Source: an uncultured Clostridia bacterium (GTDB lineage: Bacteria; Bacillota; Clostridia; Oscillospirales; Ruminococcaceae). From it: a stretch of DNA of 64,000 bases. Under the pieces are notes generated by a model. The model saw only the letters and a list, made by a program, of their open reading frames with translations. It was not told the DNA's origin and ran no database searches. Location: assembly GCA_947600065.1 (NCBI GenBank), contig CANQFZ010000003.1, forward strand, positions 1 to 64,000, read 5' to 3'. The stretch's first letter is position 1, and every line of letters begins with the position of its first letter. Both the position numbers and the translations under genes were made by a program. Positions 35,389 through 55,477 of the stretch are shown here, in pieces.

Positions 35389-36052
35389 CAGCTCCGCGAT
35401 AACGGCGGGCTGCGCACTGTATGACGGCACGAAAATAGTCGCAGAGCAGTTTCTGAATACGCGGCACACTCATTCCGAAACGCTCCTGCCTATGGTCGAA
35501 AATATGCTGAACGATGCGGAAGTTAAGCTCTCGGATATTGACAGGATAGCCGTAACGAACGGTCCGGGTTCTTTTACGGGTCTGAGGATAAGCGTTTCAT
35601 GCGTAAAGGGAATGGCGATGGGCGCTGGGATTCCCGTTGTTCCCGTTTCAACGCTCGAAGCCATAGCGTATAATTTTATAGGAGTTGACGGCATTGTCTG
35701 CGCCTGTATGGACGCGCGGCTAAACCAGGTATACAACGCGCTTTTCAGATCTGAAAACGGCGTTATAACAAGGCTTTGCAATGACAGGGCGATAAAGCTG
35801 AATGAGCTTTCAAAAGAACTCGATAAAACAGACGGGAGAGTAATTTTTGCGGGAGACGGAGCGGTTTTGGCTTATGAGTTTACCGAGAAAAAATATGAGC
35901 TTGCGCCGCTTGTTTTACGTTATCAGCGGGGAAGCGGAGTGTGTCTTGCGGCATGGAAAAAAACGGCGATAGACCCCGCCGCTCTTATGCCGAGTTATCT
36001 GAGATTGTCACAGGCAGAGCGTGAAAAACAACGACAGGAGGAAGACCAATGA
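35372..36052 (+). CDS. tsaB: tRNA threonylcarbamoyladenosine biosynthesis protein TsaB
   Basis: 226-residue ASKHA-fold partner of TsaD. Family blocks are ILGIDSSAITAGCALYD, NTRHTHSETLLPMV, NGPGSFTGLRIS and ACMDARLNQVYNALF. TsaD itself is not in the window. It overlaps both tsaE and rpiB (four-base ATGA overlap). Confidence 0.95.
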   Translation: MILGIDSSAITAGCALYDGTKIVAEQFLNTRHTHSETLLPMVENMLNDAEVKLSDIDRIAVTNGPGSFTGLRISVSCVKGMAMGAGIPVVPVSTLEAIAYNFIGVDGIVCACMDARLNQVYNALFRSENGVITRLCNDRAIKLNELSKELDKTDGRVIFAGDGAVLAYEFTEKKYELAPLVLRYQRGSGVCLAAWKKTAIDPAALMPSYLRLSQAEREKQRQEEDQ

Positions 36053-36483
36053 TATCAATAGGCTGCGACCACGGCGGTTATGAGCTGAAGCTCGCCATAA
36101 TCGAACATCTGAAAGAAAGGAACATTGAGTTTATAGACTGCGGATGTGACGGCGAAAAAGCAGATTATCCCGATATCGCCGAAAAGACCTGCAAAAAGGT
36201 AACGGGCGGCGAGTGCGATAAGGCGATACTTGTCTGCGGAACGGGAATAGGAATGTCAATGGCGGCAAACAAAATAAAGGGTATACGCGCGGCAGTCTGC
36301 TCCGACTGGTATTCTGCAAAATATACGCGCCTGCATAATGACGCAAATGTTCTTTGTCTTGGCGGCAGAGTGTTGGGCGCAGGACTTGCAATTGAGCTTG
36401 TGGACATTTTTCTCGATACGGAATTTGAACAGGGAAGACACTGTGCGAGAGTTGAAAAAGTTATGAAACTGGAGGATAAATAA
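36049..36483 (+). CDS. rpiB: Ribose-5-phosphate isomerase B
   Basis: 144-residue RpiB/LacAB-family sugar isomerase interconverting ribose-5-P and ribulose-5-P. The N-terminal GCDHGGYELK holds the phosphate-handling Asp7/His8, and Cys63 in LVCGTGIGMS is the catalytic base. YPDIA and NDANVLCLGGR are also typical. It overlaps tsaB and directly abuts upp, pairing ribose phosphate supply with a PRPP-using enzyme. Confidence 0.95.
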   Translation: MISIGCDHGGYELKLAIIEHLKERNIEFIDCGCDGEKADYPDIAEKTCKKVTGGECDKAILVCGTGIGMSMAANKIKGIRAAVCSDWYSAKYTRLHNDANVLCLGGRVLGAGLAIELVDIFLDTEFEQGRHCARVEKVMKLEDK

Positions 36484-37125
36484 ATGGAAAATTACAACAA
36501 TGTAGTGCTTTGCGATCATCCGCTCGTTCAGCATAAGCTTTCGCTTCTGCGCGATAAAAACACGGGCTCAAAGGAGTTCCGCGAGCTCGTAAACGAAATT
36601 TCTATGTTCATTTGTTATGAGGCGACGCGCGATCTCCCGTTGAAAGATGTAAGGATAGAAACGCCGCTTGCGCTTGCGGATGCGAAAATTATAAGCGGAA
36701 GAAAGGTAGCTTTTGTTCCGATAATGCGCGCGGGATTGGGAATGGTAGACGGCGCGCTGGCGCTTGTTCCTGCGGCAAAAGTCGGACACGTCGGCATCTA
36801 CCGCGATAAAATGCATGACAACACCGCTACCGAATATTACTGCAAGCTCCCGTTCGATATAGCAAACCGCGAGGTCATCATTATGGATCTTATGCTTGCG
36901 ACAGGCGTTTCGGCGATAAAGACCGTGGAGATAGTTAAAGAAGCAGGCGCGAAGAACATAAAGTTTATGTGCCTTTTGACTTGCCCCGAAGGAATAGAAG
37001 CCTTCCACGAAAAATTCCCCGATATTGAGATTTTCTGCGGAGCGATTGATAAGGGGCTTAACGATGAGCTTTATATTGTTCCGGGTATTGGCGACGGTTC
37101 TGACAGACTTTTCGGTACAAAATAA
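36484..37125 (+). CDS. upp: Uracil phosphoribosyltransferase
   Basis: 213-residue salvage enzyme converting uracil and PRPP to UMP. VPIMRAGLGMVDG (78-90) and the PRPP loop MDLMLATGVSA (134-144) identify it. The loop reads GVSA where most Upp proteins have GGSA, a mild deviation. C-terminal YIVPGIGDGSDRLFGTK is canonical. It is the last gene of the fhs-tsaE-tsaB-rpiB-upp run and ends before a terminator. Confidence 0.96.
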   Translation: MENYNNVVLCDHPLVQHKLSLLRDKNTGSKEFRELVNEISMFICYEATRDLPLKDVRIETPLALADAKIISGRKVAFVPIMRAGLGMVDGALALVPAAKVGHVGIYRDKMHDNTATEYYCKLPFDIANREVIIMDLMLATGVSAIKTVEIVKEAGAKNIKFMCLLTCPEGIEAFHEKFPDIEIFCGAIDKGLNDELYIVPGIGDGSDRLFGTK

Positions 37126-37154
37126 AATTGATTTACCAATAATAAAAAAGGACA

Positions 37155-37235
37155 ATGCCTTTCTATGACGGAGGACATTTCCCTTATAGAATAGTGTCTC
37201 ATTACCTTAACGGCAATGATGTGGATCTTCAGTAA
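37155..37235 (+). CDS. Possible 26-residue peptide
   Basis: ATG 37155 has AAAGGAC upstream and opens a 26-codon frame (MPFYDGGHFPYRIVSHYLNG, ending NDVDLQ) just before the terminator. It could be a small protein or the tail of a lost gene. Evidence is only the start context and frame. Confidence 0.2.
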   Translation: MPFYDGGHFPYRIVSHYLNGNDVDLQ

Positions 37236-37274
37236 AACACAAACGGCGATCGCGGTGCGGTCGCCGTTTAGTGT
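37236..37274 (+). terminator. Terminator after upp
   Basis: AAACGGCGA (37241-37249) pairs with TCGCCGTTT (37261-37269), extended by ACAC/GTGT with one bulge. The rest of 37275-37371 is AT-rich with nothing further visible. Confidence 0.75.
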
Positions 37275-37371
37275 TATTATCTACTATATACGGCATTGAG
37301 AATAAAATGACATAAAATTCCGTGATTTCCTGAAAATCAGGTTTGATTACATAATCGTCAGTCTAACATGC

Positions 37372-37400
37372 TTGAAAACACTCTTTGAATGTGATAAAAT
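37372..37400 (+). promoter_or_regulatory. Promoter of the M4 metallopeptidase gene
   Basis: TTGAAA (37372-37377) and TAAAAT (37395-37400) with a 17-base spacer. Confidence 0.6.
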
Positions 37401-37463
37401 TTACATTGGATAGGAAAGGTAAGACAACATTCTTATTCAAGTAAATTAAAAAGGAGAAAAAGC

Positions 37464-39992
37464 ATGAAGAAAACAAAGTTTGCCGCGGCGATCACTGCCG
37501 TTATAGCTTCGCTGTTTGTTTTTTCCGCTTCTGCGGAGGAATATTCTGTCAGCGGAACGCTCAGCGCGGACAGCAAAGACGACGCTTCTGCGACGGTGAC
37601 GGCTACTGTTACAAACGATTACTACTACGACGTAGACGGTATCGGCTACAGCGTATCCGTATCGGACAACGCGGTAATAAAGGGAGAAAGCTCCAAGACA
37701 AACGTATCGCTTGACGCGGGCGACAGCGACAGCCTTACTTTTGAGGTAGAACTTACAGGCGAAAACCCCGGTACAGGTTCAGACATCGGCATAGCAGCGA
37801 TAGCGCTTTCCGGTGCAGCTTTATTAGTGATAGGCTTTGCTACAACGAAAAAGAAAAAGCAGCTGCTTTCATTGTTCTTATGTGCAACGATAGCAGGTAC
37901 TGCGACGTTATCATCTTTGCTGCTTACGGCTGACGCCGAAGAGGTTGCCGATAGCGCTTCAAGTCAGGAACTTGAACTGGAACTCGGCGGCGAAAAGGTA
38001 ACAGTAACTCTTGACATTGATGTGCCCGAACAGCCTCAGATACATGACAATTCCGAGGAGGATATAGGGCGGCTCAACGGCGGTAAAGCGACCATTTCAA
38101 GATATTCCGACAGCGGAGATATTTCCTTTATAAACGGCAGATTTACCGACTATAAGGTCACCGATCCCGAGACAGCATTCAATTCTATTGGGGCTGTAGA
38201 TACGCTTCTTAAAAGCAAAGATGTAGTTCTTGCATATTTAAGGACTGACACAGCGGAAAACGGCGACACGTTCTACACCTTTACTCAGATGCAGGGAATA
38301 GCGCAGGTTTCCGACGCTTACATCAAGATAGGCGTTGACAAGGACGGCAATACTATCAGCCTGTCCAGCTCCATTGACCCCGACGCGACCGCGCTTAATA
38401 TTACCGAAGAAGATGTACAGGAAAACTTTGAAAAAGCAAAGGCAGCGGCGGAGAAATATGTTGGGGAACACGGCGGAAAGCTTGTTCCTGCTGATGAACC
38501 CGTTATCGTCCTGCACAAAAACGCTTACATGGCGTCCTGCTTCTTGTTCTATGTAAAGCTTGATGAAGATCCCAATATGCCGAGCGGCACGGAATCTTCG
38601 GGGTATCTTAAGCTGTTTATAGAAACAAAGTCATGCGAAGTATACGACGTTGTTCCGGTAAAGAGCATTGATCTTAATACCTATGAAAATATCGACAACA
38701 GCAAATACTTCGACGTAAAGACCGAGCAAATGGAATTTACCGACTATTACGGTCAGAAAGTAACTCTGCCTGTAGCTAAAAACGACGACGGCTATTACTT
38801 CGTCGATACCGAGCGCAAGATAATTTGCGCGGATTCCTTTAAGACTTTTGATTCTGAAAGCGCGGGGATAAAAGAAGTTGTTCCCGTGGTATTTGCAAGT
38901 GCCGAAGAAGCTCCTGCGCTTCTTGTCACCATATTCAGCAACATGAGAACTATCTATGATTATTATGACGCAAAAGGATTTAAGTCTTTAGACGGCAACG
39001 GACTGCCCTTGCTGCTCGGTTTAGGATTTAATGCGGGATACGGTCAGGACATGGAGAACGCGGCGTTTACCTCGGTATTGAGCGGATTCGGTTGTTTTAT
39101 GTTCGGAAATTATCCAATCAGCGCCTGCTTTGATGTGACCGCCCATGAATATACGCACGGAATAAAAGCATGCCACAACAGCAAAGGCACAAGCATAAAC
39201 AACACAGGTTCTATAGAAGAATCCTATGCTGATATACTCGGCAATCTTATCGAAATGCAGATAGACCCTCCGGGTTGTAATAAAGAAGTATGGTATATCG
39301 GAGAGCAGCAGCTCGGCAAGACAAGCGTTCTGCGCTGTATGTCCGACCCTCATTCCTGCAACCAGCCCGAATATATAGGCGACGTTAATTTCGTAATGAA
39401 CACCAGATATACATCCTCTTTTGTAATTGACGACAGCGGCGGAATCCATGTAAACAACTCCATACTTTCGTTTGTATGCTATCAGATGGATCAAGCGGGC
39501 ATAAGCCTTGAAGATAATTTTGATATATGGGCATACACACTTTATACGGCTGTACCCAACAGCGAATATAAAGATATAGCCGAAATGCTGAAGCTTGCAA
39601 TAGTAAGGCTCGGTTTTGAAGATAAGCTCGATGAGGTAAGCAAGATCCTCGACAAAGCCAACCTCTACGGCGACACCACATCTTGGGACAGCTACGAAAG
39701 ACCCGAAGGCACAGTAAAGATTGAATATAAGCTGGAGAATGTTCCCGAAAACTGCCAGTGGTCGTTAGCTATACAGAAAACGCTCAGCGGCGCAGGCGGC
39801 ATGGTATATGTGACATCCGATAAAAACGACGTTGCAAAGTGCTATACCATGCCCGAAGATCAGACCTCATTGCTTTTGCTGGTATCACTTGACGGAAAAA
39901 CATACTTGTCTTATGTATTCAGCGGCAATTTGAACTCCGATCAGTCGGTGACAATAGACTATAACGAGTTGGATCTTCTGTTTCTTATGTAA
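37464..39992 (+). CDS. M4 (thermolysin-like) metallopeptidase with internal sorting-signal-like segment
   Basis: 842 residues. A cleavable signal (1-24, SASA) and a small Ig-like domain (about 26-98) precede NPGTG (101-105), a hydrophobic segment (108-127) and KKKK, which together look like a sortase sorting signal. The chain then continues through a second hydrophobic segment (134-155) into a propeptide-like region (about 200-420) and the catalytic domain. Zinc residues are His561 and His565 in HEYTH with Glu562 as base, and Glu585 in GSIEESYAD; GGIHVNN supplies the transition-state His. The spacing from His561 to Glu585 equals that of thermolysin. A C-terminal beta domain of about 120 residues follows. 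It is monocistronic. Whether the internal motif is ever used by a sortase is unknown. Confidence 0.9.
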   Translation: MKKTKFAAAITAVIASLFVFSASAEEYSVSGTLSADSKDDASATVTATVTNDYYYDVDGIGYSVSVSDNAVIKGESSKTNVSLDAGDSDSLTFEVELTGENPGTGSDIGIAAIALSGAALLVIGFATTKKKKQLLSLFLCATIAGTATLSSLLLTADAEEVADSASSQELELELGGEKVTVTLDIDVPEQPQIHDNSEEDIGRLNGGKATISRYSDSGDISFINGRFTDYKVTDPETAFNSIGAVDTLLKSKDVVLAYLRTDTAENGDTFYTFTQMQGIAQVSDAYIKIGVDKDGNTISLSSSIDPDATALNITEEDVQENFEKAKAAAEKYVGEHGGKLVPADEPVIVLHKNAYMASCFLFYVKLDEDPNMPSGTESSGYLKLFIETKSCEVYDVVPVKSIDLNTYENIDNSKYFDVKTEQMEFTDYYGQKVTLPVAKNDDGYYFVDTERKIICADSFKTFDSESAGIKEVVPVVFASAEEAPALLVTIFSNMRTIYDYYDAKGFKSLDGNGLPLLLGLGFNAGYGQDMENAAFTSVLSGFGCFMFGNYPISACFDVTAHEYTHGIKACHNSKGTSINNTGSIEESYADILGNLIEMQIDPPGCNKEVWYIGEQQLGKTSVLRCMSDPHSCNQPEYIGDVNFVMNTRYTSSFVIDDSGGIHVNNSILSFVCYQMDQAGISLEDNFDIWAYTLYTAVPNSEYKDIAEMLKLAIVRLGFEDKLDEVSKILDKANLYGDTTSWDSYERPEGTVKIEYKLENVPENCQWSLAIQKTLSGAGGMVYVTSDKNDVAKCYTMPEDQTSLLLLVSLDGKTYLSYVFSGNLNSDQSVTIDYNELDLLFLM

Positions 39993-40028
39993 TATGTTAC
40001 GGCGTGAGTAGAACAATTGAATAAATAG

Positions 40029-40065
40029 AAACCCCGAATCAATTAAAGTTGGTTCGGGGTTTTTG
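40029..40065 (+). terminator. Terminator after the M4 peptidase
   Basis: AAACCCCGAA pairs with TTCGGGGTTT, extended by CAA/TTG, and a T run follows. Confidence 0.88.
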
Positions 40066-40093
40066 TAAATAAATTAGATTATTGAAGAATTAC

Positions 40094-40123
40094 CGCTACC
40101 GAAATCAAAATGTTTCGGTAGCG
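40094..40123. terminator. Hairpin just outside the left inverted repeat
   Basis: CGCTACCGAAA and TTTCGGTAGCG form a perfect 11-base-pair stem with an eight-base loop. Its position 35 bases outside the left inverted repeat would intercept leftward transcripts from the promoter at 40200-40228. No strong T run on the minus strand, so termination is inferred. Confidence 0.6.
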
Positions 40124-40157
40124 AATTTTATCTGTATTTTAATACAAGAACTCATAT

Positions 40158-40184
40158 TTTTCGCAGAACATTCCCTTGTGCGAA
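40158..40184 (+). repeat. Left 27-base inverted repeat (recombinase core-type site)
   Basis: Within it, a nine-base arm TTCGCAGAA, a seven-base spacer CATTCCC and an inverted nine-base arm TTGTGCGAA (one mismatch between arms) form the classic tyrosine-recombinase core-site geometry. The same 27 bases occur inverted at 41484-41510. Confidence 0.85.
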
Positions 40185-40199
40185 TGTCCATTTATATAC

Positions 40200-40228
40200 A
40201 TTATATCACATATTTATATAAATTTCAA
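40200..40228 (-). promoter_or_regulatory. Outward-facing near-consensus promoter inside the invertible segment
   Basis: On the minus strand, TTGAAA (40228-40223) and a perfect TATAAT (40205-40200) are separated by exactly 17 bases. Transcription would start near 40193 and cross the left repeat, going away from the recombinase gene. There is no gene for it to serve in the present orientation. Confidence 0.8.
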
Positions 40229-40307
40229 GCGTTTTGGCGAAAAGTTCTACAAAATTTTTCGGCGGAATTTGTGCAGATTGACGAACGATTTGCCCGTAAA
40301 AATTCTA

Positions 40308-40330
40308 TTTCTGGTCAAAATTCTGGTCAA
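40308..40330 (+). repeat. Arm-type direct repeat, left copy
   Basis: Two tandem TTCTGGTCAA units, 12 bases apart, within a 23-base sequence repeated identically at 41430-41452. It lies 30 bases before the recombinase start and may overlap its promoter (TATGAT at 40337-40342). Resembles arm-type binding sites of Tn916/lambda-class integrases. Confidence 0.75.
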
Positions 40331-40360
40331 TTGTGCTATGATTTTTAAGGAGGTGGTTTT

Positions 40361-41425
40361 ATGTCAAGGCGCGGGGAGAACGTGTTCAAGCGGCGCGACG
40401 GGCGCTGGGAAGCGCGGTATGTTCGTGAAATAACGCTCGACGGCAGGAAAAAATACGGCTCGGTTTACGCGAAAACCTACCGCGAGGTCAAGGAAAAACA
40501 GCGGCTTTTAATCGAACAGCCTCGGCAGGGTTCGCCAAAAATCAGCAGGAAAACGCTTATGCAGATTATGGAAGAATGGCTTAACAGCGCGAAAAATCAG
40601 CTGAAAATCTCGACGTTTCAGAAGTACAACTCGATAATTCAAAATCACATTTCGCAAATCGGAAATTTGCCGATAAAATTCGTGACGAGCGAGGTAATTT
40701 CGCAGTTCACGGACAGCCTGCTTGAACAGCTTTCGCGCGAAACCGCAAACCAAATTTTGATAGTTCTCGGAATGGGTTTCAACTTCGCGAGGGCGCAGTA
40801 CAATGCGGTTTTACCCGATATTCACCTGTTAAAATGCGCGAAACCGAGTGTTCGGGTTTTGTCGGTCACAGAGCAGAATATTCTCGTGAATTATCTGCGG
40901 AGTTGCGGGGATATTTTCGCGTTCGGGGTTCTGCTCGCGCTGTTTACGGGAATGAGGGTGGGCGAAATTTGCGCGCTGAAATGGGAAAACGTTTCGGCTG
41001 AAACTATACGCATTTGCGCGACAATGCAACGGTTGAAAGGCAGTTCGGGCAAGACCGAAATCGTTATTCTGCCGCCGAAAACCGAATGTTCAAACCGCGA
41101 AATTCCGATACCGAAAACGCTTATTTTCGAACTTGAAAACCGCCGAAAAAGCGGCGGGTTTGTGCTTGTGCAGGAGAACGGAAACCCTGTCGAGCCTCGT
41201 CTTTTGCAGAGCAGATTTTCGCGGATTGCGGGGGCTTGCGGGCTGTCGGACGTGCATTTTCACACGCTTCGGCACACGTTCGCGACGAGGTGCGTCGAGG
41301 CGGGCGTGGACGTGAAAACGCTGTCGGAGATACTCGGACATTCCGATGTGAAAACGACGCTTAATCGCTATGTTCACTCGTCGCTGGAACTTAAAAAGAG
41401 CTGTCTGGACAAGCTGACGATTTGA
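40361..41425 (+). CDS. Tyrosine recombinase (phage/Tn916-type integrase family)
   Basis: 354-residue site-specific recombinase. The N-terminal 50 residues (FKRRDGRWEARYV, KKYGSVYAKTYREVK) form an AP2-like arm-binding domain; a helical core-binding domain (about 60-155) and the catalytic domain follow. All active-site residues are intact: Arg199 in TGMRVGE, His301 and Arg304 in HTLRHTF, His327 in LGHSD and the nucleophile Tyr337 in NRYVH. AAGGAGGTG precedes the ATG. The gene is more GC-rich than its surroundings. No excisionase, relaxase or other mobility gene accompanies it, and it lies inside its own candidate sites, which favours a DNA-inversion role. Confidence 0.93.
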   Translation: MSRRGENVFKRRDGRWEARYVREITLDGRKKYGSVYAKTYREVKEKQRLLIEQPRQGSPKISRKTLMQIMEEWLNSAKNQLKISTFQKYNSIIQNHISQIGNLPIKFVTSEVISQFTDSLLEQLSRETANQILIVLGMGFNFARAQYNAVLPDIHLLKCAKPSVRVLSVTEQNILVNYLRSCGDIFAFGVLLALFTGMRVGEICALKWENVSAETIRICATMQRLKGSSGKTEIVILPPKTECSNREIPIPKTLIFELENRRKSGGFVLVQENGNPVEPRLLQSRFSRIAGACGLSDVHFHTLRHTFATRCVEAGVDVKTLSEILGHSDVKTTLNRYVHSSLELKKSCLDKLTI

Positions 41426-41429
41426 GCTG

Positions 41430-41452
41430 TTTCTGGTCAAAATTCTGGTCAA
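41430..41452 (+). repeat. Arm-type direct repeat, right copy
   Basis: Identical 23-base copy of 40308-40330, in the same orientation, starting five bases after the recombinase stop. Two TTCTGGTCAA units at a 12-base period. Confidence 0.75.
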
Positions 41453-41483
41453 ATGCCCGCAAAACCGCATAGCAAAGGCACTT

Positions 41484-41510
41484 TTCGCACAAGGGAATGT
41501 TCTGCGAAAA
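41484..41510 (-). repeat. Right 27-base inverted repeat (recombinase core-type site)
   Basis: Exact reverse complement of 40158-40184, with the same 9-7-9 core geometry. Similarity stops at both ends of the 27 bases. Confidence 0.85.
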
Positions 41511-42036
41511 GTGCGTTGCATTTGGCAGTATCTGTTAAATGTGTCCACATTTGTGCGGTATTATACAAATCGGAGGTAAATTTTCAATGCCTGTTCGATT
41601 TAAATTTTGTCATCAAGAAAATAAACCGAATTGCCGTAAGCGTTAAAAAAACGTTTGTTAATATTTATGAAAAAATTAAATTATAGAATTGTAAAGGTAC
41701 AGCGATTTAATAAAGTTTAGGTATATATTGAATAATATTCGGTAAAATTCAAATTACAGAAATTGAAAGTTACTATGTTATAATATAGTGATAGTACATT
41801 TTTTTTGTTTTTTAGACATTTCGACATTCTTTTTAAAAAATTTTTTCCTTTAGTTTTCTGGCTTTAGTGCTAATAAAAAATTGCGCCTTATATTTTATAG
41901 TTATGTTCGGCTTGTCCACGCGCTTTTTGTTTTGCGGGAATTTTGCGCGTTAATATAAAATGTACCGCAATGAAAGTTTTTCGATAATATGATTATTTAG
42001 CAACTATTTTTTATTTTTACTGAAAAGAGGAAAATT
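41511..42036 (+). promoter_or_regulatory. 526-base AT-rich leader with possible extended -10 promoter
   Basis: No convincing gene. TG-T-TATAAT at 41776-41784 is an extended -10 element without a good -35, so a resident promoter for the LRR gene is possible but weak. GGAGG with a 19-codon frame occurs near 41570-41650; I do not regard it as a gene. No strong terminator is seen, so transcripts entering from the invertible segment could reach 42037. Confidence 0.4.
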
Positions 42037-44883
42037 ATGTTATGTAAAAACTGCGGAGCCGAGCTCCAAGAAAAAGAAAACAAACTCGTCTGCCCGAAGT
42101 GTGGTGCGGAAGTTGACTTAACCGTGCCCGAAAAAACTGTATCCGAGCAAACTTCGACAACCCCTCAACCCGCCGCTGAAACCGCTTCGGAATACATAAC
42201 CCCGCGCGGGTTTTCGTCAAAGAAAAATATCATCATTATAATCCTCGCGGCTGTCCTTGTCCTCGGTCTTGGCGCGGGTATAACCGTTCTTGCCGTGAGC
42301 AATTCTTCCACAAATAAGGTTTCGCAGGGAATTGAGCTTGCCGAGCGTTATTTGTCCGAGCAGAATTACGAGCAGGCAATCATTGAGTATGAGAAAGTTC
42401 TTGAAATTGAGCCGATGAACGTTGACGCTTATCTCGGACTTGCAAATGCTTATGAGAAAAGCGGCGATATTGACAAGGCAATTGATATCTTGCGCGAGGG
42501 CTATGAGAAAACAGGCGATAATCGTATCAAAGAAATGTTAGATAGGCTGACTGATCCTACGCAGAGTTCGTCAAGTTCGTCGAGTAGTTCTGTGCCTGTA
42601 AGCTCGTCAAGCGCCCCCGTTTCGAGTTCTTTCGGCAGCACGGAAAGCTCCTCGAGCAGTTCCGCTCCCGAAAGTTCTTCAAGCAGTGCGGAGAGTTCTT
42701 CGAGTGGTTTTGAGAGTTCATCAAGCAGCTATGAAAGCAATTTTAGCTCGTCAAGTTCTTCATCTAGTTCCTCTTTTTCAAGTAGTTCGTCAAGTTCGAG
42801 CAGCTTTGGGTCATCAAGTTCTTCAAGCAGACCGTCAAGTTCTTCAAGCAGACCGTCAAGTTCTTCAAGCAGACCCGCAAGTACGGGTAGCTCATCGCTC
42901 CCTGCAGGCACGAACAGCAACGACTGCCTTGTTATAGAGAATAATGTCGTAGTGGATTGCGACCCGAGCGCGGTGATAATTGAAATTCCGAATGGAGTAA
43001 CAAAAATTGATGAATATGCATTTAGCGGTTGTTCGAAATTGATAAAACTGGAATTGCCGAACAGTGTTACATCAATTGGTGGTTCTGCTTTTAGCGGTTG
43101 TTCAAATTTAACAAGTTTGAACTTACCAAACAGTGTTACAGAGATTGGAAGATATGCTTTTTATGGTTGTTCAAATTTGCAAAGTATAAATTACCCAAGT
43201 TCATTGAAGAAAGTCGGCGGTCAGATATTCGATGGGTGTACTAAGTTAAAGAGTATAACTGTACCACAAGGAGTTACAGAAATACCTGATTATGCTTTTG
43301 ATGCTACATCTTCCAATAGCTATTTGGAAGAAATCATCTTGCCAAGTACAATTAAAACAATTGGTGAATCAGCTTTTAGCGGTTGCTCAAAATTGACAAA
43401 ACTAGAGTTGCCAAGCAGCGTTACAGAAATTGGCAGATCTGCTTTTAGTGGCTGTTCAAAATTAACTAAATTGAGCTTACCGAATAGTGTTACAAAAATA
43501 GGAAGAGAAGCGTTCTACAATTGTTCAAGTCTGGAAAGTATAAATTATCCGAGTTCACTGAAAGAAACCGGTTATGGTATTTTTAATGGGTGTTCAAAGT
43601 TAAAAAGTATAACAGTTCCGCAAGGAGTTACAGAAATTCCATATCTTGCTTTTTCATCTTCATCTTCTGAAAGCTATTTGGAAGAAATCATCTTGCCGAG
43701 TACAATTAAAACAATTGGTGAATCAGCTTTCAGTGGTTGTTCAAAAATAACGAAATTGAGTTTACCGAATAGTGTTACAAAAATAGGAAGAGAAGCGTTC
43801 TACAATTGTTCAAGTCTGCAAAGCATAAATTATCCAAGTTCACTGAAAGAAACCGGTTATGGTATTTTTAACGGGTGTTCTAAGTTAAAAAGAATAACTG
43901 TTCCGCAAGGAGTTACAGAAATTCCATATCTTGCTTTTTCTTCTTCATCTTCTGAAAGCTATTTGGAAGAAATCATCTTGCCAAGTACAATTAAAACAAT
44001 TGGTGAGTCTGCCTTCAGCGGTTGTTCAAAATTGACAAAACTGGAATTGCCGAGCAGTGTTACATCAATTGGTGGTTCAGCTTTCAGCGGTTGTTCAAAA
44101 ATAACGAAATTGAGTTTACCGAATAGTGTTACAAAAATAGGAAGAGAAGCATTCTACAATTGTTCAAGTTTACAAAGTGTAAATTATCCGAGTTCACTGA
44201 AAGAAACCGGTTATGGTATTTTTAATGGGTGTTCAAAGTTAAAAAGTATAACAGTTCCGCAAGGAGTTACAGAAATTCCATATCTTGCTTTTTCATCTTC
44301 ATCTTCTGAAAGCTATTTGGAAGAAATCATCTTGCCGAGTACAATTAAAACAATTGGTGAATCAGCTTTCAGTGGTTGTTCAAAAATAACGAAATTGAGT
44401 TTACCGAATAGTGTTACAAAAATAGGAAGAGAAGCGTTCTACAATTGTTCAAGTCTGCAAAGCATAAATTATCCAAGTTCACTGAAAGAAACCGGTTATG
44501 GTATTTTTAACGGGTGTTCTAAGTTAAAAAGAATAACTGTTCCGCAAGGAGTTACAGAAATTCCATATCTTGCTTTTTCTTCTTCATCTTCTGAAAACTA
44601 TTTGGAAGAAATCATCTTGCCGAGTACAATTAAAACTATTGGAGAATCAGCTTTCAATGGTTGTTCGAAATTGACAAAATTAAACTTGCCGAGCGGTGTT
44701 ACTGAAATTGACAGATATGCTTTTGGTGGCTGTTCAAAATTAACAAGTTTGAATATACCGAACAGCGTTACGAAAATTGGTTATGATGCATTTTACAATT
44801 GTTCAAGTCTCTCGGCTACATACAAAGGCAAGACTTATAATTACTCTAACATAGAAGCCTTGTATTCTGCTATAAACGGTTAA
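42037..44883 (+). CDS. Zinc-ribbon/TM/TPR protein with BspA-like leucine-rich repeats
   Basis: 948 residues. An N-terminal zinc ribbon (Cys3, Cys6, Cys19, Cys22) is followed by a Thr/Pro linker, one TM helix (about 64-88), a TPR unit (about 96-170, YLSEQNYEQAIIEYEKVLEI), a Ser-rich linker (about 176-295) and LRR_5/BspA-type repeats (about 300-940, units like IPNSVTKIGYDAFYNCSSL). The zinc ribbon should be inside and the LRR outside the cell; BspA-type LRRs commonly mediate adhesion. A 639-base block is tandemly duplicated within the LRR part. GAGG precedes the ATG. It sits between the candidate inversion switch and tadZ (36 bases), so it may lead the pilus operon. Confidence 0.88.
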   Translation: MLCKNCGAELQEKENKLVCPKCGAEVDLTVPEKTVSEQTSTTPQPAAETASEYITPRGFSSKKNIIIIILAAVLVLGLGAGITVLAVSNSSTNKVSQGIELAERYLSEQNYEQAIIEYEKVLEIEPMNVDAYLGLANAYEKSGDIDKAIDILREGYEKTGDNRIKEMLDRLTDPTQSSSSSSSSSVPVSSSSAPVSSSFGSTESSSSSSAPESSSSSAESSSSGFESSSSSYESNFSSSSSSSSSSFSSSSSSSSSFGSSSSSSRPSSSSSRPSSSSSRPASTGSSSLPAGTNSNDCLVIENNVVVDCDPSAVIIEIPNGVTKIDEYAFSGCSKLIKLELPNSVTSIGGSAFSGCSNLTSLNLPNSVTEIGRYAFYGCSNLQSINYPSSLKKVGGQIFDGCTKLKSITVPQGVTEIPDYAFDATSSNSYLEEIILPSTIKTIGESAFSGCSKLTKLELPSSVTEIGRSAFSGCSKLTKLSLPNSVTKIGREAFYNCSSLESINYPSSLKETGYGIFNGCSKLKSITVPQGVTEIPYLAFSSSSSESYLEEIILPSTIKTIGESAFSGCSKITKLSLPNSVTKIGREAFYNCSSLQSINYPSSLKETGYGIFNGCSKLKRITVPQGVTEIPYLAFSSSSSESYLEEIILPSTIKTIGESAFSGCSKLTKLELPSSVTSIGGSAFSGCSKITKLSLPNSVTKIGREAFYNCSSLQSVNYPSSLKETGYGIFNGCSKLKSITVPQGVTEIPYLAFSSSSSESYLEEIILPSTIKTIGESAFSGCSKITKLSLPNSVTKIGREAFYNCSSLQSINYPSSLKETGYGIFNGCSKLKRITVPQGVTEIPYLAFSSSSSENYLEEIILPSTIKTIGESAFNGCSKLTKLNLPSGVTEIDRYAFGGCSKLTSLNIPNSVTKIGYDAFYNCSSLSATYKGKTYNYSNIEALYSAING
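43321..44598 (+). repeat. Two tandem 639-base units in the LRR region
   Basis: The word coding for YLEEIILPST recurs at 43321, 43675, 43960, 44314 and 44599, i.e. at alternating spacings of 354 and 285 bases. This makes a 639-base (213-codon) higher-order unit present twice. The 285-base parts (43675-43959 and 44314-44598) are almost identical, while the 354-base parts differ by roughly a tenth. Confidence 0.85.
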
Positions 44884-44919
44884 AAATTACAAAAGAAATA
44901 TAATATTCGGAGGTAAAAA

Positions 44920-45999
44920 ATGACATCGATCAGAGTGCTTTTGATCACTAACGACAGTGTGTATTGCCATAGGCTCGCAGCATATCTGGGGAAACATCAT
45001 ACGGAAATAAAAATTTCCATAATGAATGACGCTTCTGAGATACAGAAAATTATCGCTCAGAAAACATATAATGTCGTTCTTATCGGCGATGAATATTCAG
45101 ATATGGAAGTTTCCGCTTCGTCAAGCGTTGCTTGCGCGTTTTTGTCGGCAAGCTCGTCAGAAATGCTTTTAAATAACATAAAAGTCTTCTGCAAATATAA
45201 AAGCGGCGAGGAGATATATAAAAAGATACTCGACTTATACTCCGAAGTTTCCACGGGTTCTTTAGAAACGGCTTTCTCGGGAAAAAGGGTATATGCTTTC
45301 GCAGGCGCGAGCGGAGGCGCAGGGACAACTACGGTAGCCGCAGCATTTTGCTTTAAGCTTGCTTCCATGGGAAAAACGGTTCTTTATTTCAGCTGTGATA
45401 AATTTGCCGACAGTTCTGTAATTTTTAATGATAATCTACAAAGCGGAAGCATTAGCGATCTGTTTTATGCAGTTAAGTCTCTTGACGGCAAAAACGTTAA
45501 TTTGTCGGCAAAGACCTCGTCGCTTATGAAAAAGGACAGTCAGAATGTAAGCTATTTTGACAATTGCAGAAATCCTCTTGATTTTGATGGGCTTGATTAT
45601 GCCCAGCTTAAAAAAATATTTGATATAGCCGTACATGCAGGTAATTATGATTGTGTAATAACCGACGGTAGCATTTATGACGAACGTTATATAGAACTTA
45701 TAAAAGGATCCGCAGATAAAATTCTGATAGTGGCGGAAAATACAACTTCGTCCGCCGCAAAGTTAAAGAGAGTTTCGGACTATCTGGATATACTCGACAA
45801 ACGTGATTCGTCAGGCTTTATTGACAGATCAGCGGTTATAATGAACAAAAACCGCGAGCCTAATGTTAATAGAAGTTCATTTCAGAATATGTCGTTTGTG
45901 GGCGTGATCCCGAAGTACAAAGACTCCGACCCAAGGGCAATATCGAACGCTGCGTCGCGGCTCGACGTCTGGAATAATTTGCTGAAAGGATCTGATTGA
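44920..45999 (+). CDS. tadZ: TadZ/CpaE-type pilus assembly ATPase
   Basis: 359-residue MinD-like protein that positions the Tad/Flp pilus machine. Residues 1-110 form an atypical receiver-like domain (VLLITNDSVYCHRLAAYL). The ATPase starts at about 123 with the deviant Walker A SGGAGTTT (131-138), lacking the usual Lys pair as is common in this family. CVITDGSIYD contains the Walker B-like Asp. GGAGG precedes the ATG. First gene of the tad run. Confidence 0.85.
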   Translation: MTSIRVLLITNDSVYCHRLAAYLGKHHTEIKISIMNDASEIQKIIAQKTYNVVLIGDEYSDMEVSASSSVACAFLSASSSEMLLNNIKVFCKYKSGEEIYKKILDLYSEVSTGSLETAFSGKRVYAFAGASGGAGTTTVAAAFCFKLASMGKTVLYFSCDKFADSSVIFNDNLQSGSISDLFYAVKSLDGKNVNLSAKTSSLMKKDSQNVSYFDNCRNPLDFDGLDYAQLKKIFDIAVHAGNYDCVITDGSIYDERYIELIKGSADKILIVAENTTSSAAKLKRVSDYLDILDKRDSSGFIDRSAVIMNKNREPNVNRSSFQNMSFVGVIPKYKDSDPRAISNAASRLDVWNNLLKGSD

Positions 46000-46010
46000 G
46001 GGGATTAAAA

Positions 46011-47273
46011 ATGAATGACAGAATATCAAAATTTACCGATAAAATAAGAGCGGAAATGGTCGAGTTTGTTACATACAATGAAGTTTCAAACGAAGACCTT
46101 ATGAGTAAGATCGAAAGTACAGTCCGTTCAAGATCTGCGGATATATATCTCAGCATTGATGAAGAAATAGACGTTATAAAAAGAATTTACAGCTCTATAC
46201 GCGGTCTTGGTGTACTCGATGAAATTATGAGCGACGACACCATAACCGAGGTTATGATAAACGGACCTGACTGTATTTTTGTAGAGCAAAACGGAAAAAT
46301 TGAAAAGCTTGACAGGCATTTTGAAAGTGCTGAAAAGCTTGCCGATATTATTCAGCGAATAGTAGGCACTGTCGGCAGAGAAGTTACAAGTGCAAATCCT
46401 ATAGCCGACGCAAGACTTACAGACGGCTCACGTGTAAATATAGTTATGCCGCCCGTGGCATTAAACGGTCCTATAGTCACCATAAGAAAGTTTTCTTCCG
46501 ACCCTATGACAGTACAGAAGCTCATACAATACGGCTCTATAACTGCCCAGATAGCAGATCTTCTGAAGGACCTTGTTGAGGCAAGATATAACATTTTTAT
46601 AAGCGGCGGTACGGGCTCGGGAAAAACCACATTTTTAAATGCGCTTTCAAATTTCATTCCTCAAAGCGAACGTATCATAACAATTGAAGACTCTGCCGAG
46701 CTGCAGATAAAAAACATACCTAATATTGTCCGTCTTGAAACAAGAAATGCAAATTCCTCGGGAAAAGGACAGGTTACTATAAGAGATCTTATTAAATCTG
46801 CACTTCGTATGCGCCCCGACAGAATTGTAGTTGGCGAGGTGCGCGGAGCGGAAGCGCTGGATATGCTTCAGGCAATGAATACCGGACACGACGGTTCTTT
46901 GTCCACAGGACACGCCAATTCTTCGGAGGATATGATAAGCCGTTTGGAAACAATGGTCCTTACGGGAGCCGAGGGTCTGCCTCTTCCGGCAATAAGACAG
47001 CAGATAGCGTCGGCAGTTGATATTATAATTCATTTGTCAAGAATGAGAGACAGAACAAGAAAAACCGTTTCAATAAGCGAGGTTGACGGCTTGGATGAAT
47101 ACGGAAACGTAAAACTGAATGTTCTGTTTGAATTTACCGAGGACTTTAAAAGGTCTACAAAGGATAAGGTCGTTGGTCGTCTCGAAAGGACGCAGAATAA
47201 AGTAAAGCATGTCGGAAAGTTGATTGCTGCAGGAAAGGATGCGAGTATTTTTGATGCTGAAAGGTTTAACTAA
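46011..47273 (+). CDS. cpaF: Tad pilus secretion ATPase CpaF (TadA)
   Basis: 420-residue GspE/VirB11-like hexameric ATPase that powers Flp pilus assembly. ATG 46011 follows GAGGGGA; the TTG at 45996 overlaps the tadZ stop and lacks a site. Walker A is GGTGSGKTT (199-207), then ERIITIEDSAELQI (Asp box), RMRPDRIVVGEVRG (Walker B) and TGHANS (His box). Full length and intact. Confidence 0.95.
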   Translation: MNDRISKFTDKIRAEMVEFVTYNEVSNEDLMSKIESTVRSRSADIYLSIDEEIDVIKRIYSSIRGLGVLDEIMSDDTITEVMINGPDCIFVEQNGKIEKLDRHFESAEKLADIIQRIVGTVGREVTSANPIADARLTDGSRVNIVMPPVALNGPIVTIRKFSSDPMTVQKLIQYGSITAQIADLLKDLVEARYNIFISGGTGSGKTTFLNALSNFIPQSERIITIEDSAELQIKNIPNIVRLETRNANSSGKGQVTIRDLIKSALRMRPDRIVVGEVRGAEALDMLQAMNTGHDGSLSTGHANSSEDMISRLETMVLTGAEGLPLPAIRQQIASAVDIIIHLSRMRDRTRKTVSISEVDGLDEYGNVKLNVLFEFTEDFKRSTKDKVVGRLERTQNKVKHVGKLIAAGKDASIFDAERFN

Positions 47274-48030
47274 AAAAAGCAAAGTCGAAAATGACGGACT
47301 TTATGATTATACAAAATATCATATGAAGCTGAAAGACAGAGCGATCGCTTTTCTTATTGGTTTTGGGTTGGCAGCGATAGCTATTCACATTTTCTTTGGT
47401 AATATTATTGTGGATCTTGTAGTAGGAATTGCCGCAGGTATCGTTGCACAGCCTATCTACAGAAAAATGATGATCAAAAAGATAAGAAGACAACTTTTAT
47501 TTCAGTTCAGGGATCTGTTGGATTCGCTCAGTTCGTCTGTTTCAGCGGGAAAGGTAGTAAACGCAGCTTTTGCAGATGCAGAAAAGGATATGAATTTGCA
47601 ATACGGCGAGAATAGTTTGATATACAAAGAAGTCAGAGCAATAAATTCGGGATTGATAAACTCCGCAAATATTGAAGATCTGCTTTTGGATTTCGGAAAG
47701 CGCAGCGGCATTGAGGATATTGTAAGCTTTGCGAATGTATTTTCTATCTCAAATCGCCGCGGCGGAGAAATAAAATCCATTATTGGAGAAACAAAGAGTA
47801 TTTTGTGCGATAAGATAGATATCGAAATGGAGATACAGGCTTCTCTTAATTCAACAAAAAATGAACTGAATATTCTTATGCTTATGCCCCTTATAGTTGT
47901 TCCTATGATGTCTTCATTTTCACAGGATTCCGATAACCCCGCTATAAATATCACTGTAAAGATCGCGGGACTTGCTATATTTATTATTGCATATATTATC
48001 GGAAGAAAAATTACTGACATTAAGGTCTGA
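47239..48030 (+). CDS. tadB: TadB-like inner-membrane platform protein
   Basis: About 263 residues; ATG 47239 is used, and an in-frame ATG at 47254 is possible. TM helices lie near residues 30-72 and at the C-terminus, enclosing a T2SSF domain (FQFRDLLDSLSSSVSAGKVV, SISNRRGGEIKSII). It overlaps the end of cpaF. With TadC it should form the membrane platform on which CpaF acts. Confidence 0.88.
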   Translation: MRVFLMLKGLTKKSKVENDGLYDYTKYHMKLKDRAIAFLIGFGLAAIAIHIFFGNIIVDLVVGIAAGIVAQPIYRKMMIKKIRRQLLFQFRDLLDSLSSSVSAGKVVNAAFADAEKDMNLQYGENSLIYKEVRAINSGLINSANIEDLLLDFGKRSGIEDIVSFANVFSISNRRGGEIKSIIGETKSILCDKIDIEMEIQASLNSTKNELNILMLMPLIVVPMMSSFSQDSDNPAINITVKIAGLAIFIIAYIIGRKITDIKV

Positions 48031-48040
48031 GGTATAGAAT

Positions 48041-48904
48041 ATGGGAAAGATAATAATGTTTTTGATCGGTGTTATTACCGCCGCAATTTACATAATACTG
48101 TATCTTGTCGGCAACAAAAAATATCAAAGAGTTGCTGCGGCTGTCAGAGACGATGTATTTCCGATAAAGGATATATTTGTGGTCGGTCTGTTGACGCTTG
48201 ATATCTTTAAGATAAAGCCCGAAATAAAAAGCTCAAAGACAAGAAGAAAGTATACGGAGCTGTTTGGAAAACAATATGTTGAGTTTTATTCGATGATAAC
48301 CGTTGCTTCTGTAATAAGCTATGTTGCAATGTTTATTCCCGTTGCATTCTTTTTTGGAGCAATGGCTGACATGGTAGAGATGATATTTCTTATACTCATA
48401 ATATCCGTGCTATTACCTGTATATGTGATAATTTCAATAGACGATAAAATAAAAAATCAGCGCAATGAAATATTGATGGACTATCCTAATGTCCTTTCAA
48501 AAATAGCTCTTTTGACAAATGCGGGAATGACGCTCAGAGAGGCTTGGGCGGATGTCGCAAAATCAGGCAACACAAAGCTGTATATCGAAATGCGGAATGT
48601 AATAACCCTTATAAACAACGGAACTCCCGAGATACGGGCATATGAGGAGCTCGCCGAGAGCTGCAGGGTAAATGAAATAAAAAAGTTTGTTTCTGTCATA
48701 TGCCAGAATCAAAAGGGAAGCTCAGAGCTTGTTTATATTATGAAAGAGCTTTCCGTAGAAGCATGGAATGCAAAGAAAACCGTAGCGAAGATGAAAGGTG
48801 ATTCCGCTCAGACAAAGCTTATGATCCCGCTGCTTATCAGCTTTGTGGGAATACTTGCGATGATCATGGTACCGATCGTTGCAAATATGAACCTCGGTAT
48901 ATGA
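48041..48904 (+). CDS. tadC: TadC-like inner-membrane platform protein
   Basis: 287 residues with an N-terminal TM, two central TMs (about 85-135) and a C-terminal TM flanking a T2SSF domain (YPNVLSKIALLTNAGMTLREAW, VICQNQKGSSELVYIMKEL). It lies ten bases after tadB and pairs with it in the Tad platform. Confidence 0.88.
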   Translation: MGKIIMFLIGVITAAIYIILYLVGNKKYQRVAAAVRDDVFPIKDIFVVGLLTLDIFKIKPEIKSSKTRRKYTELFGKQYVEFYSMITVASVISYVAMFIPVAFFFGAMADMVEMIFLILIISVLLPVYVIISIDDKIKNQRNEILMDYPNVLSKIALLTNAGMTLREAWADVAKSGNTKLYIEMRNVITLINNGTPEIRAYEELAESCRVNEIKKFVSVICQNQKGSSELVYIMKELSVEAWNAKKTVAKMKGDSAQTKLMIPLLISFVGILAMIMVPIVANMNLGI

Positions 48905-48969
48905 TAAGGATAATTACATTGATAAACAATGATAATTATATATCTAAAAAGCAGAAGGAGGTGATAGAG

Positions 48970-49245
48970 ATGAAAAACTTTACATTTAAGGCTTGGGCAC
49001 AGGCACAGTGCTTAAAGCAGGCGGCAAAATCAAAGATAAACGAATTTTTCCACGATGAACAGGGCGACGCGGGACCAATAATCATAGGAGTTATAATTAT
49101 AGTAATTGCTGTAGGTCTTGCTGTTATTTTCAGAGATCAGTTAGCTGCGTGGCTTAATTCGTTATTTGGTAAAGCCAATGAAGGTATTGAAGGTGCTATG
49201 GATTCAGCTTCAGTACAAATTCATCATCCTTCTTCCAGTCATTAA
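48970..49245 (+). CDS. Flp1-like pilin subunit
   Basis: 91 residues from ATG 48970, which has a very strong AAGGAGGTG. A short basic head (about 32 residues) ends in DEQGDAGP, followed by one hydrophobic helix (IIIGVIIIVIAVGLAVIF) and a small tail (WLNSLFGKANEGIEGAMDSA). This is the organisation of Flp1-type pilins in Firmicutes. The strong ribosome-binding site and the hairpin that follows fit a highly expressed structural subunit. Confidence 0.82.
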   Translation: MKNFTFKAWAQAQCLKQAAKSKINEFFHDEQGDAGPIIIGVIIIVIAVGLAVIFRDQLAAWLNSLFGKANEGIEGAMDSASVQIHHPSSSH

Positions 49246-49261
49246 CAAGCTTATGCTGAAA

Positions 49262-49288
49262 CACGCGCCGATAGTGCGTCGGCGCGTG
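49262..49288 (+). terminator. Intra-operon hairpin after the pilin gene
   Basis: CACGCGCCGA and TCGGCGCGTG form a perfect 10-base-pair stem with a seven-base loop. No T run follows. It probably stabilises the pilin mRNA 3' end or partly attenuates read-through, so that pilin is made in excess. Confidence 0.7.
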
Positions 49289-49321
49289 GTATTCGGAAAT
49301 AATTAACATTTGGAGAATGTT

Positions 49322-50080
49322 ATGAATAATAAAAAGCTTTTACTCTCAGAAAACGGCGCTGCAACTGTCCTTGAAGCAACGATCATTTATCCTATCGTGT
49401 GCCTTGTGACTGTTCTGCTTGTTTTTGTGGGATTTACATATGCCCAGCAGGGTTTTCTTACTTATCATTCACAGACGCTTTCGTCATATCTTGCGAAAAC
49501 CGTGTGTTATCCTGGATATCAGTTTATAGATGATCCTTATCATGAAGACGAAGACGGCGTAACGGTAGATGACATAAACAAAGCCATGAAAGCCCAGGCG
49601 CCATATAGATATCTGTTCGGAGTTTTCAGCGGTCAGTATAATGCACCCGATGACAACAATGAAGATCTTATTGCAAATTATGTAAAGTTTATGGCGGAGG
49701 ATTATCTCACAGAACACGGGTTTTTAAAATCGTCAGGCGGAAATGTAGAGCTTCCTGACGATATATCTGAATTTACGCCCGAACGTATAGTTAATAAAAA
49801 CGGATATGCCTGTGCTATTGACGCGAATACTTCGAGAGTTATCGTCTATATGGGACAGAATTATATGTTCGCGAATTTTTTCAGAATGATAGGGTTCGGC
49901 GGAAGACAAATGGTAATAAGCAGCAAGTCTTGTGCTTTTGTGAGCGACGCCCTTGAAATTGTCAGAATTACGGATATGGCGTTTGATGTTACAGATCATA
50001 TTGCAGGAAAGCTTGGTATAAATACCGAGCAGTTAAGTAAGATCGGTGATACAATAAAAAAATTTACACAAGGTGAGTAA
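49322..50080 (+). CDS. TadE-like pseudopilin/assembly protein
   Basis: 252 residues from ATG 49322; the upstream in-frame TTG 49310 is part of the TTGGAG ribosome-binding site. The N-terminal NGAATVLEATIIYPIVCLVTVLLVF is split here into its Glu-containing TadE motif (VLEATIIYP) and TM helix. The rest is a soluble outside domain with no recognised fold. Minor pilin-like role in the Tad machine inferred. Confidence 0.75.
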   Translation: MNNKKLLLSENGAATVLEATIIYPIVCLVTVLLVFVGFTYAQQGFLTYHSQTLSSYLAKTVCYPGYQFIDDPYHEDEDGVTVDDINKAMKAQAPYRYLFGVFSGQYNAPDDNNEDLIANYVKFMAEDYLTEHGFLKSSGGNVELPDDISEFTPERIVNKNGYACAIDANTSRVIVYMGQNYMFANFFRMIGFGGRQMVISSKSCAFVSDALEIVRITDMAFDVTDHIAGKLGINTEQLSKIGDTIKKFTQGE

Positions 50081-50100
50081 ACTGTTTCGGAGGAAATAAT

Positions 50101-54039: not shown

Positions 54040-54040
54040 T

Positions 54041-54778
54041 ATGAAAAATAAGATCGGATCGGAGTTTGGATCTTACACAATAGAAGCAAGTATCTCGCTT
54101 GTAATATTTGTTTCAGCAATAATGCTCATTCTCTCACAAGTAAGGGTCCTGATAGGAGAATGTATAATGCAAAATGCTGTAAATAATATGGCAAAGGAAA
54201 CAGCTTCTTATGTATATGTTTTCGACCGCTTAGGACTTGTCTTTAAAGAAAGCGAAACCGAAACTCTGGATAATATATATTCAGAAGGAAAGGTACTTTC
54301 GGAAGAATATACAGGTTTATTGGAAAGTATATTTCCTGATGAATCATCGGGCGGAACTTCTATAGATGTTGAGGGAATCAAGGGAAACGCCGAGAGTATG
54401 ATAGATTCCATAAAAAATATTATGAGTATTCTTGATTCAGCAAACTCGGAAGATTTAAAGAAAGAGTTGGAAGCTCTTGGACGTTCGGGCGTAGATGATC
54501 TTTTGAAATTAGCTTCTAATAAGATTCTTGAACATTTTTATAAATGGAAGCTAAACGCATATCTTCCCATGGAATACGATAAATTCTGCAATTATTTTAT
54601 GATAAAAGACAATGCTGTTTCATTCAAGTGCTCGAGAGTTTTTCCGGATCAGAATAACAATTCGATTCTTGTTGTTGTGGAATATGACACAAAGTCATTG
54701 GTCAATTTTTTACCCCTTGACCGACATATTGTAAAATACGCTTATACTGCGGCATGGGTTGAATCAAATGCAAATTAA
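54041..54778 (+). CDS. TadE-like minor pilin protein
   Basis: 245 residues. N-terminal GSYTIEASISLVIFVSAIMLIL is the TadE pattern (Glu before the TM helix, split here as YTIEAS and the helix). An outside domain follows with a Ser/Glu-rich middle and the C-terminal VEYDTKSLVNFLPLDRHIVK. It starts one base after the stop of the large DUF5702-like gene, so the two are coupled. Confidence 0.78.
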   Translation: MKNKIGSEFGSYTIEASISLVIFVSAIMLILSQVRVLIGECIMQNAVNNMAKETASYVYVFDRLGLVFKESETETLDNIYSEGKVLSEEYTGLLESIFPDESSGGTSIDVEGIKGNAESMIDSIKNIMSILDSANSEDLKKELEALGRSGVDDLLKLASNKILEHFYKWKLNAYLPMEYDKFCNYFMIKDNAVSFKCSRVFPDQNNNSILVVVEYDTKSLVNFLPLDRHIVKYAYTAAWVESNAN

Positions 54779-54802
54779 AGCCATTGTTTCGGAGGAATTA
54801 CT

Positions 54803-55477
54803 TTGAAATATATTATTTCATGCTTTATAGCGGCCGGTTGTTGCGTGGGTGGATGGTTTTTTACTAGATGGTATCTGAATAAAAACAAATCCGAATTTAA
54901 AAAGATAAAGAAGCTTCCATTGCTTATTACAGCTTCGGGAATTATCTTTTTAGCGGTTTCAGTATTATTTCCTTTGTTTATTTTATCTAATGATATGTCG
55001 GTATATTCATTGTTTAGAACAATGATACTTATATATTTTCTCTTTTTCGCCGGGTTTATTGATTATAAGCTGCATTTGATACCAAATAAACTGTTGCTTA
55101 TTCTGCTTGGTATAGCAGGTCTGAGTTACGGGGCAGAAGCCTTTATAGATTTTCCTGCATTTCAGTCGGAAGGAATTATGGCGCTTATAGGATGCGCGGT
55201 ATGTTTCGTTATTTTCTTTGTAGGAAAATTGATATCCCGAGATGGAATGGGTATGGGAGATATAAAGCTGTCTGCTTTGATAGGATTGTTGTTGGGGCTT
55301 GACAGCGCGATCGGATGTTTGTTGTGGTCGCTGATGTTAGCGGCTGTTACAGGCGCAGTTTTAATGATATCCAAAAAAGCAAACCGAAAGACTAAATTGC
55401 CATTTGCCCCTTTCTTCTTTATGGGTGCTATGGTCAGTCACATTATATTCATAATAACAGGAACATTGGGAGGATAA
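54803..55477 (+). CDS. cpaA: Prepilin peptidase (A24, CpaA/TadV type)
   Basis: 224-residue polytopic aspartic peptidase that cleaves the Flp and TadE leader peptides. Catalytic residues are Asp87 in AGFIDYKLHLIPN and Asp153 in GMGMGDIKL. About six TM helices. TTG 54803 is preceded by GGAGG with seven-base spacing. It completes a full Tad set (ATPase, platform, pilin, peptidase). Confidence 0.92.
   Translation: MKYIISCFIAAGCCVGGWFFTRWYLNKNKSEFKKIKKLPLLITASGIIFLAVSVLFPLFILSNDMSVYSLFRTMILIYFLFFAGFIDYKLHLIPNKLLLILLGIAGLSYGAEAFIDFPAFQSEGIMALIGCAVCFVIFFVGKLISRDGMGMGDIKLSALIGLLLGLDSAIGCLLWSLMLAAVTGAVLMISKKANRKTKLPFAPFFFMGAMVSHIIFIITGTLGG

Follow-up and report, generated by a model that had tools for sequence, protein, structure and literature searches.

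In the Hin/H segment of Salmonella, a recombinase gene and an outward promoter share one invertible segment that switches a surface-structure gene. Hin is a serine recombinase that works with hix sites and a Fis enhancer. The fimS switch of E. coli (FimB/FimE) and the RecV switches of C. difficile rely on a tyrosine recombinase to invert a promoter or leader in front of surface genes; there the recombinase gene lies outside the invertible segment, and FimB/E are without an arm-binding domain. Integrase elements carry their core sites in direct orientation, and the Tn916 integrase has an N-terminal domain and direct-repeat arm sites. Hin, as an example of a recombinase within the invertible segment, and RecV with its switches are treated together in PMC5903667. 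Among Clostridia, inverton group 139 has been linked to tyrosine-recombinase group 35, with the recombinase outside short invertons (PMC11892184); the two of its invertons that come with coordinates measure ~255 bp, and the recombinase family appears there as a non-intersecting neighbour (PMC11892184).

We analysed a locus in a 64,000-nucleotide stretch of DNA from an uncultured Clostridia bacterium (hereafter, the window), where a segment of ~1.35 kb bounded by inverted repeats encloses a tyrosine recombinase and an outward promoter (Table 1). The layout is that of Hin/H, run by a tyrosine integrase with core sites and putative direct-repeat arm-type sites; the use of a tyrosine recombinase on a promoter ahead of surface genes is shared with the FimB/FimE and RecV systems. 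Group 139 has in common with it the host class and a tyrosine recombinase linked to an inverton, but here the recombinase is inside a 1.35-kb segment rather than outside one of ~255 bp, which places the element apart from that group. In all likelihood this is an autonomous promoter inverton whose own recombinase flips the segment, a reading carried by comparison with related loci; inversion very probably switches an operon for a surface protein and a pilus, the LRR gene and Tad genes, on or off.

Table 1. Features of the invertible segment and its surroundings (positions in the window).
Feature	Position	Strand	Basis and remarks
Second terminator-like hairpin, 3′ of M4 peptidase gene	40032-40064		by eye
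Terminator-like hairpin facing the promoter in the present state	40094-40123	both	scan
Left inverted repeat, recombinase core site (half-sites ~11 bp, spacer ~5 bp)	40158-40184	+	27 nt, 100% complementary to 41484-41510
Outward promoter TTGAAA-17-TATAAT, extended -10	40200-40228	-	consensus scan; at 41440-41468 (+) once inverted
Tandem direct repeat TTTCTGGTCAAAATTCTGGTCAA, proposed arm-type site upstream of recombinase	40308-40330	+	repeat scan, motif comparison
Proposed recombinase promoter -10 (TATGAT, TG before) and ribosome-binding site AAGGAGG	40337-40353	+	sequence; weak promoter match; adjoins upstream arm-type repeats
Tyrosine recombinase, 354 aa, N-terminal three-stranded sheet and helix domain	40361-41425	+	ORF, Pfam, alignment, structure model
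Tandem direct repeat TTTCTGGTCAAAATTCTGGTCAA, proposed arm-type site downstream of recombinase	41430-41452	+	repeat scan, motif comparison
Right inverted repeat, core site	41484-41510	-	complementarity to left repeat
Promoter-like site outside right repeat, inward-pointing	41560-41587	-	scan; role uncertain
TPR/BspA-type LRR protein, 948 aa, cysteine-rich zinc-ribbon-like start; predicted first target	42037-44883	+	ORF, Pfam
TadZ-like protein, predicted co-transcribed	44920-45999	+	
CpaF/TadA-type ATPase (T2SSE)	45996-47273	+	
Probable TadB-like gene	47224-48030	+	position only, no Pfam match
TadC-like T2SSF protein	48041-48904	+	
Flp1-like pilin	48901-49245	+	
Rest of Tad-type locus	49310-55477	+	includes DUF5702 protein (50101-54039) and A24 prepilin peptidase (54803-55477)

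The perfect 27-base repeats were already recognised in a preliminary description of the locus. A repeat scan of positions 36000-46000 found no other long perfect inverted pair, and by our own arithmetic a pair like this, its arms <2 kb apart, would arise by chance in 64 kb with a probability of ~1e-8. The 9-7-9 core geometry proposed earlier describes the same site, which also fits an 11-5-11 reading, TTTCGCAGAAC-ATTCC-CTTGTGCGAAA; a 5-bp spacer was the best-scoring geometry in 59 of 107 elements. The window segment, like most of its relatives, has the inverted repeats expected of a promoter inverton, and its core sites are inverted, not direct as in the excision and integration of lambda/Tn916-type integrases. 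Positions 41475-41517 extend the right repeat to an 18-bp imperfect palindrome, which inversion would break and which could form an RNA hairpin. Three relatives (L066, L071, L084) have two tandem core-site copies at each end, with inverted arms of 54-73 nt. Searching the window against Rfam gave no family at the gathering threshold, with chance-level matches alone at the element.

The enclosed recombinase reads through 354 aa without an internal stop, matches relatives over its full length, and hits Phage_integrase (E = 1.7e-27) and SAM_3 in Pfam. Its catalytic residues Arg199, His301, Arg304, His327 and Tyr337 are invariant in 16 relatives. These residues and the fold identify a tyrosine recombinase, not a serine recombinase of the Hin type, in agreement with the earlier claim of an intact enzyme between the repeats. 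A model built from 16 sequences (mean pLDDT 85) predicts a three-stranded sheet and helix at residues 8-52, followed by core-binding and catalytic domains, and its best matches among solved structures are Tn1549 Int and then lambda Int. The enzyme thus appears to be of the Tn916/lambda type, with a separate N-terminal domain for which arm binding is predicted from the fold. The Tn916/Tn1549 integrases move a transposon by excision and insertion, whereas here the cores are inverted and the unit holds one gene. Plasmid-borne relatives from Phocaeicola and Bacteroides (matches H22-H24) align at residues 62-353 only and do not have the N-terminal arm domain.

The preliminary description regarded a recombinase inside its own segment as unusual, but in this clade enclosure is the rule. 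Approximately 110 related recombinases, mostly from Bacillota, are boxed alike: a repeat, 150-260 bp with an outward promoter, the recombinase, 50-150 bp, and a repeat. Elements of this build are spread over many gut bacteria. The same genome holds two further full-length relatives (33-34% identity); in a set of 61 genomes, most of them from the genus and the own genome among them, 17 carry a relative at E <= 1e-40. Repeats surround ~20 of the 26 loci from the own genome and the genus level; those without them are mostly more distant paralogs or lie at contig ends. When one genome per species was scanned, ~62 of the best 80 relatives, from Oscillospiraceae, Lachnospiraceae, Christensenellaceae and other Bacillota, proved to be boxed alike, against 7 of 337 control combinations of left and right flanks from different loci. 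Searching the whole order turned up such recombinases in 49 of 295 genomes, with repeats at 24 of 26 loci examined. On a quick FastTree tree of 119 recombinases the boxed layout occurs throughout the clade with scattered exceptions, phage-type integrases fall mostly outside, and the fewest changes of boxed state amount to 14. Outward promoters (score >= 10) are present in the upstream gap of 70 of 89 elements, a set containing a few near-identical ones, compared to 7.7 expected from shuffled gaps; inward promoters in the same gap number 14 against 7 expected, and the downstream gap has an outward promoter in 1 of 89. Two related recombinases (L133:7214-7626 and L135:7276-7459) carry a small repeat pair next to the gene, with no pair detected around it, which may represent a sister layout; group 139 may be another instance of it.

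Could the repeats be insertion ends of a small mobile element, such as an integrase-only transposon or a decayed phage or ICE end, rather than inversion sites? The enzyme resembles Tn916-family integrases, a near-same element (92% recombinase identity, same 25-bp core) occurs at unrelated sites in two species, and an identical element is found in a region common to four genomes of different genera. However, the core sites are inverted, orthologous loci carry the element inverted in place from repeat to repeat (see below), the outward promoter is conserved, and no empty site was found near the MMPL flank, where, in the seven genomes compared, identity gives out at least ~450 bp short of the site and a core was likewise not detected. 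We therefore consider a mobile element very improbable and the inverton reading by far the better one. The identical element (L099, L100, L101, L245) is located 450 bp from a gene for a 245-aa rRNA adenine dimethylase (Erm-like); its hosts are Butyricicoccus, Blautia, Agathobaculum and one further genome, its orientation is the same in all four, and the common region looks mobile.

The outward promoter matches the consensus at 11 of 12 bases and has TG ahead of its -10 element; this match and the conservation described above argue for the inside, outward-directed promoter expected of a promoter inverton. With two terminator-like hairpins and the 3′-end of the M4 peptidase gene ahead of it, the promoter has no gene to serve in the present orientation, just as the preliminary description had proposed for a promoter firing through the left repeat. 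The anatomy likewise supports the proposal that the sequenced state is OFF, with transcription predicted to run into terminators. The promoter-like site at 41587-41560 would be directed at the recombinase after inversion and not before, and may be a chance match.

We built the inverted state by script. The promoter then lies at 41440-41468 (+), with a start near 41475 followed by the repeat and, past it, a leader of ~527 nt to the ATG at 42037, which has a GAGG. By scan, no + strand terminator is present between 41511 and 42037, and the leader RNA fold is no more stable than those of shuffled sequences. All genes from 42037 to 55477 are on one strand with small gaps or overlaps. The direction suggested earlier, towards the BspA-like LRR gene and the Tad locus, fits this anatomy; the LRR gene could also have a promoter of its own. 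By eye, an AT-rich hairpin followed by a T-run is seen in the leader at 41770-41812, a possible attenuator.

Relatives provide a wider view of what such promoters face. Among the genes in divergent position are signal-peptidase-like genes and those for surface proteins rich in repeats, for Big_2 and FHA proteins and for regulators of the TetR and AraC types; UDP-galactopyranose mutase occurs there together with polysaccharide genes, and zinc-ribbon proteins with a clostripain-type protease behind them. Many have no Pfam match. Taking the nearest gene on each flank, with genes called mechanically from ORFs, we found that where one flanking gene is divergent the promoter points away from it in 36 elements (OFF-like) and towards it in 18 (ON-like), a split such as a two-state switch would give; 28 elements have divergent genes on both flanks and 6 on neither. 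In the own genome, the promoter of one further element (C3:113438-114502) points at a sugar-nucleotide gene (rfbA-like, by sequence) and that of another (C26:220-1281) away from its divergent flank. Terminator-like hairpins lie within ~170 nt of the repeat in 51 of 75 flanks whose gene is convergent and in 40 of 122 whose gene is divergent, compared to ~13% in shuffles. These data bear on the alternative that the segment inverts and its promoter mainly serves recombinase control or antisense RNA over a neighbour instead of LRR/Tad switching. The long leader (527 nt) with its possible attenuator and the 28 elements in which the other flank too holds genes facing away would suit such a role. It is nevertheless unlikely, given that terminators are most frequent where the flanking gene faces the element, divergent-side genes are often surface or regulatory, and LRR and Tad genes follow directly downstream in one tight run. 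Switching of these genes is the reading we prefer.

Element flanks were compared all round, and pairs sharing a flank were then aligned. In four pairs of orthologous loci from the genus, the two copies of the element are oppositely oriented and the breakpoints fall at the repeats. For L022/L025, the common flank (94.7% over 1304 bp) is collinear as far as the final base of the repeat; the element (89.4%), from one repeat to the other, matches on the opposite strand. L021/L024, L003/L025 and L002/L024 show the same inverted pattern, and a fifth, more distant pair (L063/L065; element 93%, flank 72%) agrees. In the same-orientation pairs L003/L022 and L002/L021 the alignment runs straight through. 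The genus-level pairs come from loci of four species and thus are not independent; they require no fewer than two inversions, with one at each of two sites. Opposite orientations at orthologous loci with repeat-precise breakpoints show, by comparison between species, that inversion has occurred; two separate insertions into the same base, in opposite directions, could also give this pattern but would be a less simple account. The comparison in related genomes suggested in the preliminary description therefore yielded both orientations at orthologous sister loci, and none at the exact site of the window. The nearest recombinase relative (L057, 92%) sits at an unrelated site, so its orientation is not comparable with that of the window. 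Downstream of the M4 peptidase orthologs in G009 and G006 lie other genes, leaving no same-site match there, and no near ortholog of the TadZ gene was found in the genus. From the sister loci we infer flipping at this locus as well, and the original promoter-inversion reading is strongly supported by the architecture of ~110 relatives, the conserved promoter and these opposite orientations. In L022 (G006:C59), the downstream flank matches L025 and the upstream flank L024, both from one other species, as if copies had exchanged flanks.

A switch with intact repeats might also be a leftover that no longer flips in this species. At plasmid sites common to Enterococcus raffinosus strains, which carry more distant relatives, no second orientation was found (one per site), a pattern that a locked switch would share. 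The perfect 27-bp repeats and intact catalytic residues suggest continued use, however, and sister loci in the same genus have flipped, making a locked state quite improbable and an active inverton the favoured reading. The Enterococcus raffinosus and gilvus megaplasmids (L217-L222, L225-L230) have their relatives next to accessory Sec and WxL surface loci, in a single orientation wherever strains were comparable; the repeats there are A-rich and differ from the Clostridia core.

A feature missed in the preliminary description is a paired direct-repeat motif adjoining both ends. The inner flanks share GTCA in tandem, 12 bp apart and in the same orientation. Over 86 elements, the upstream gap contains 195 copies of GTCA on the recombinase strand and 37 on the opposite one, the downstream gap 133 and 14; pairs 12 bp apart number 98 and 0, respectively. 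The motif is found in both gaps of 66 of 86 elements, compared to 3 of 86 for the reverse strand. The elements are related and not independent, and the strand contrast is internal to each of them. As inverted repeats, the arm repeats are not above chance. We infer that they are putative arm-type sites, read by the N-terminal domain of the recombinase. The arm repeats are direct while the cores are inverted, so the two ends are not equivalent; speculatively, this could allow control over the direction of inversion.

In the mechanism we propose, the recombinase would cut and rejoin the two inverted core sites, flipping the 1.3-kb segment together with its own gene and outward promoter. In the OFF state the promoter would fire into the terminators behind the M4 peptidase gene; in the ON state, with the promoter at 41440-41468 (+), transcription would pass the right repeat and enter the LRR gene and the operon for the Tad pilus. 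The same-orientation tandem GTCA repeats inside both ends would act as arm-type sites that help synapse assembly and, being located beside the proposed promoter of the recombinase itself, may also tune its expression.

The promoter inverton as a kind is already known, and this is Hin-like logic run by an integrase-type enzyme; the enclosed integrase-type recombinase and the putative arm-type sites set the element apart among promoter invertons. We found no description of the enclosed integrase-type layout in the open-licence PubMed Central literature, which is no proof of novelty. More tentatively, the clade could form a distinct class of autonomous, horizontally moving promoter-switch cassettes derived from a Tn916-like integrase, in which inverted cores with same-direction arms make inversion controllable and same-genome copies exchange flanks, rewiring which surface operon is switched; we regard this as possible rather than probable. 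Surveys seeking short intergenic repeat pairs can overlook 1.35-kb units whose interior gene is annotated as an integrase, and the clade supplies a simple rule for finding them: an outward promoter and then an integrase with GTCA arm repeats, enclosed by a repeat on either side. The putative arm sites raise the question of how an excision-kind integrase comes to serve inversion, and the clade offers a way to predict phase-variable surface pili, adhesins and polysaccharide operons of gut Clostridia.
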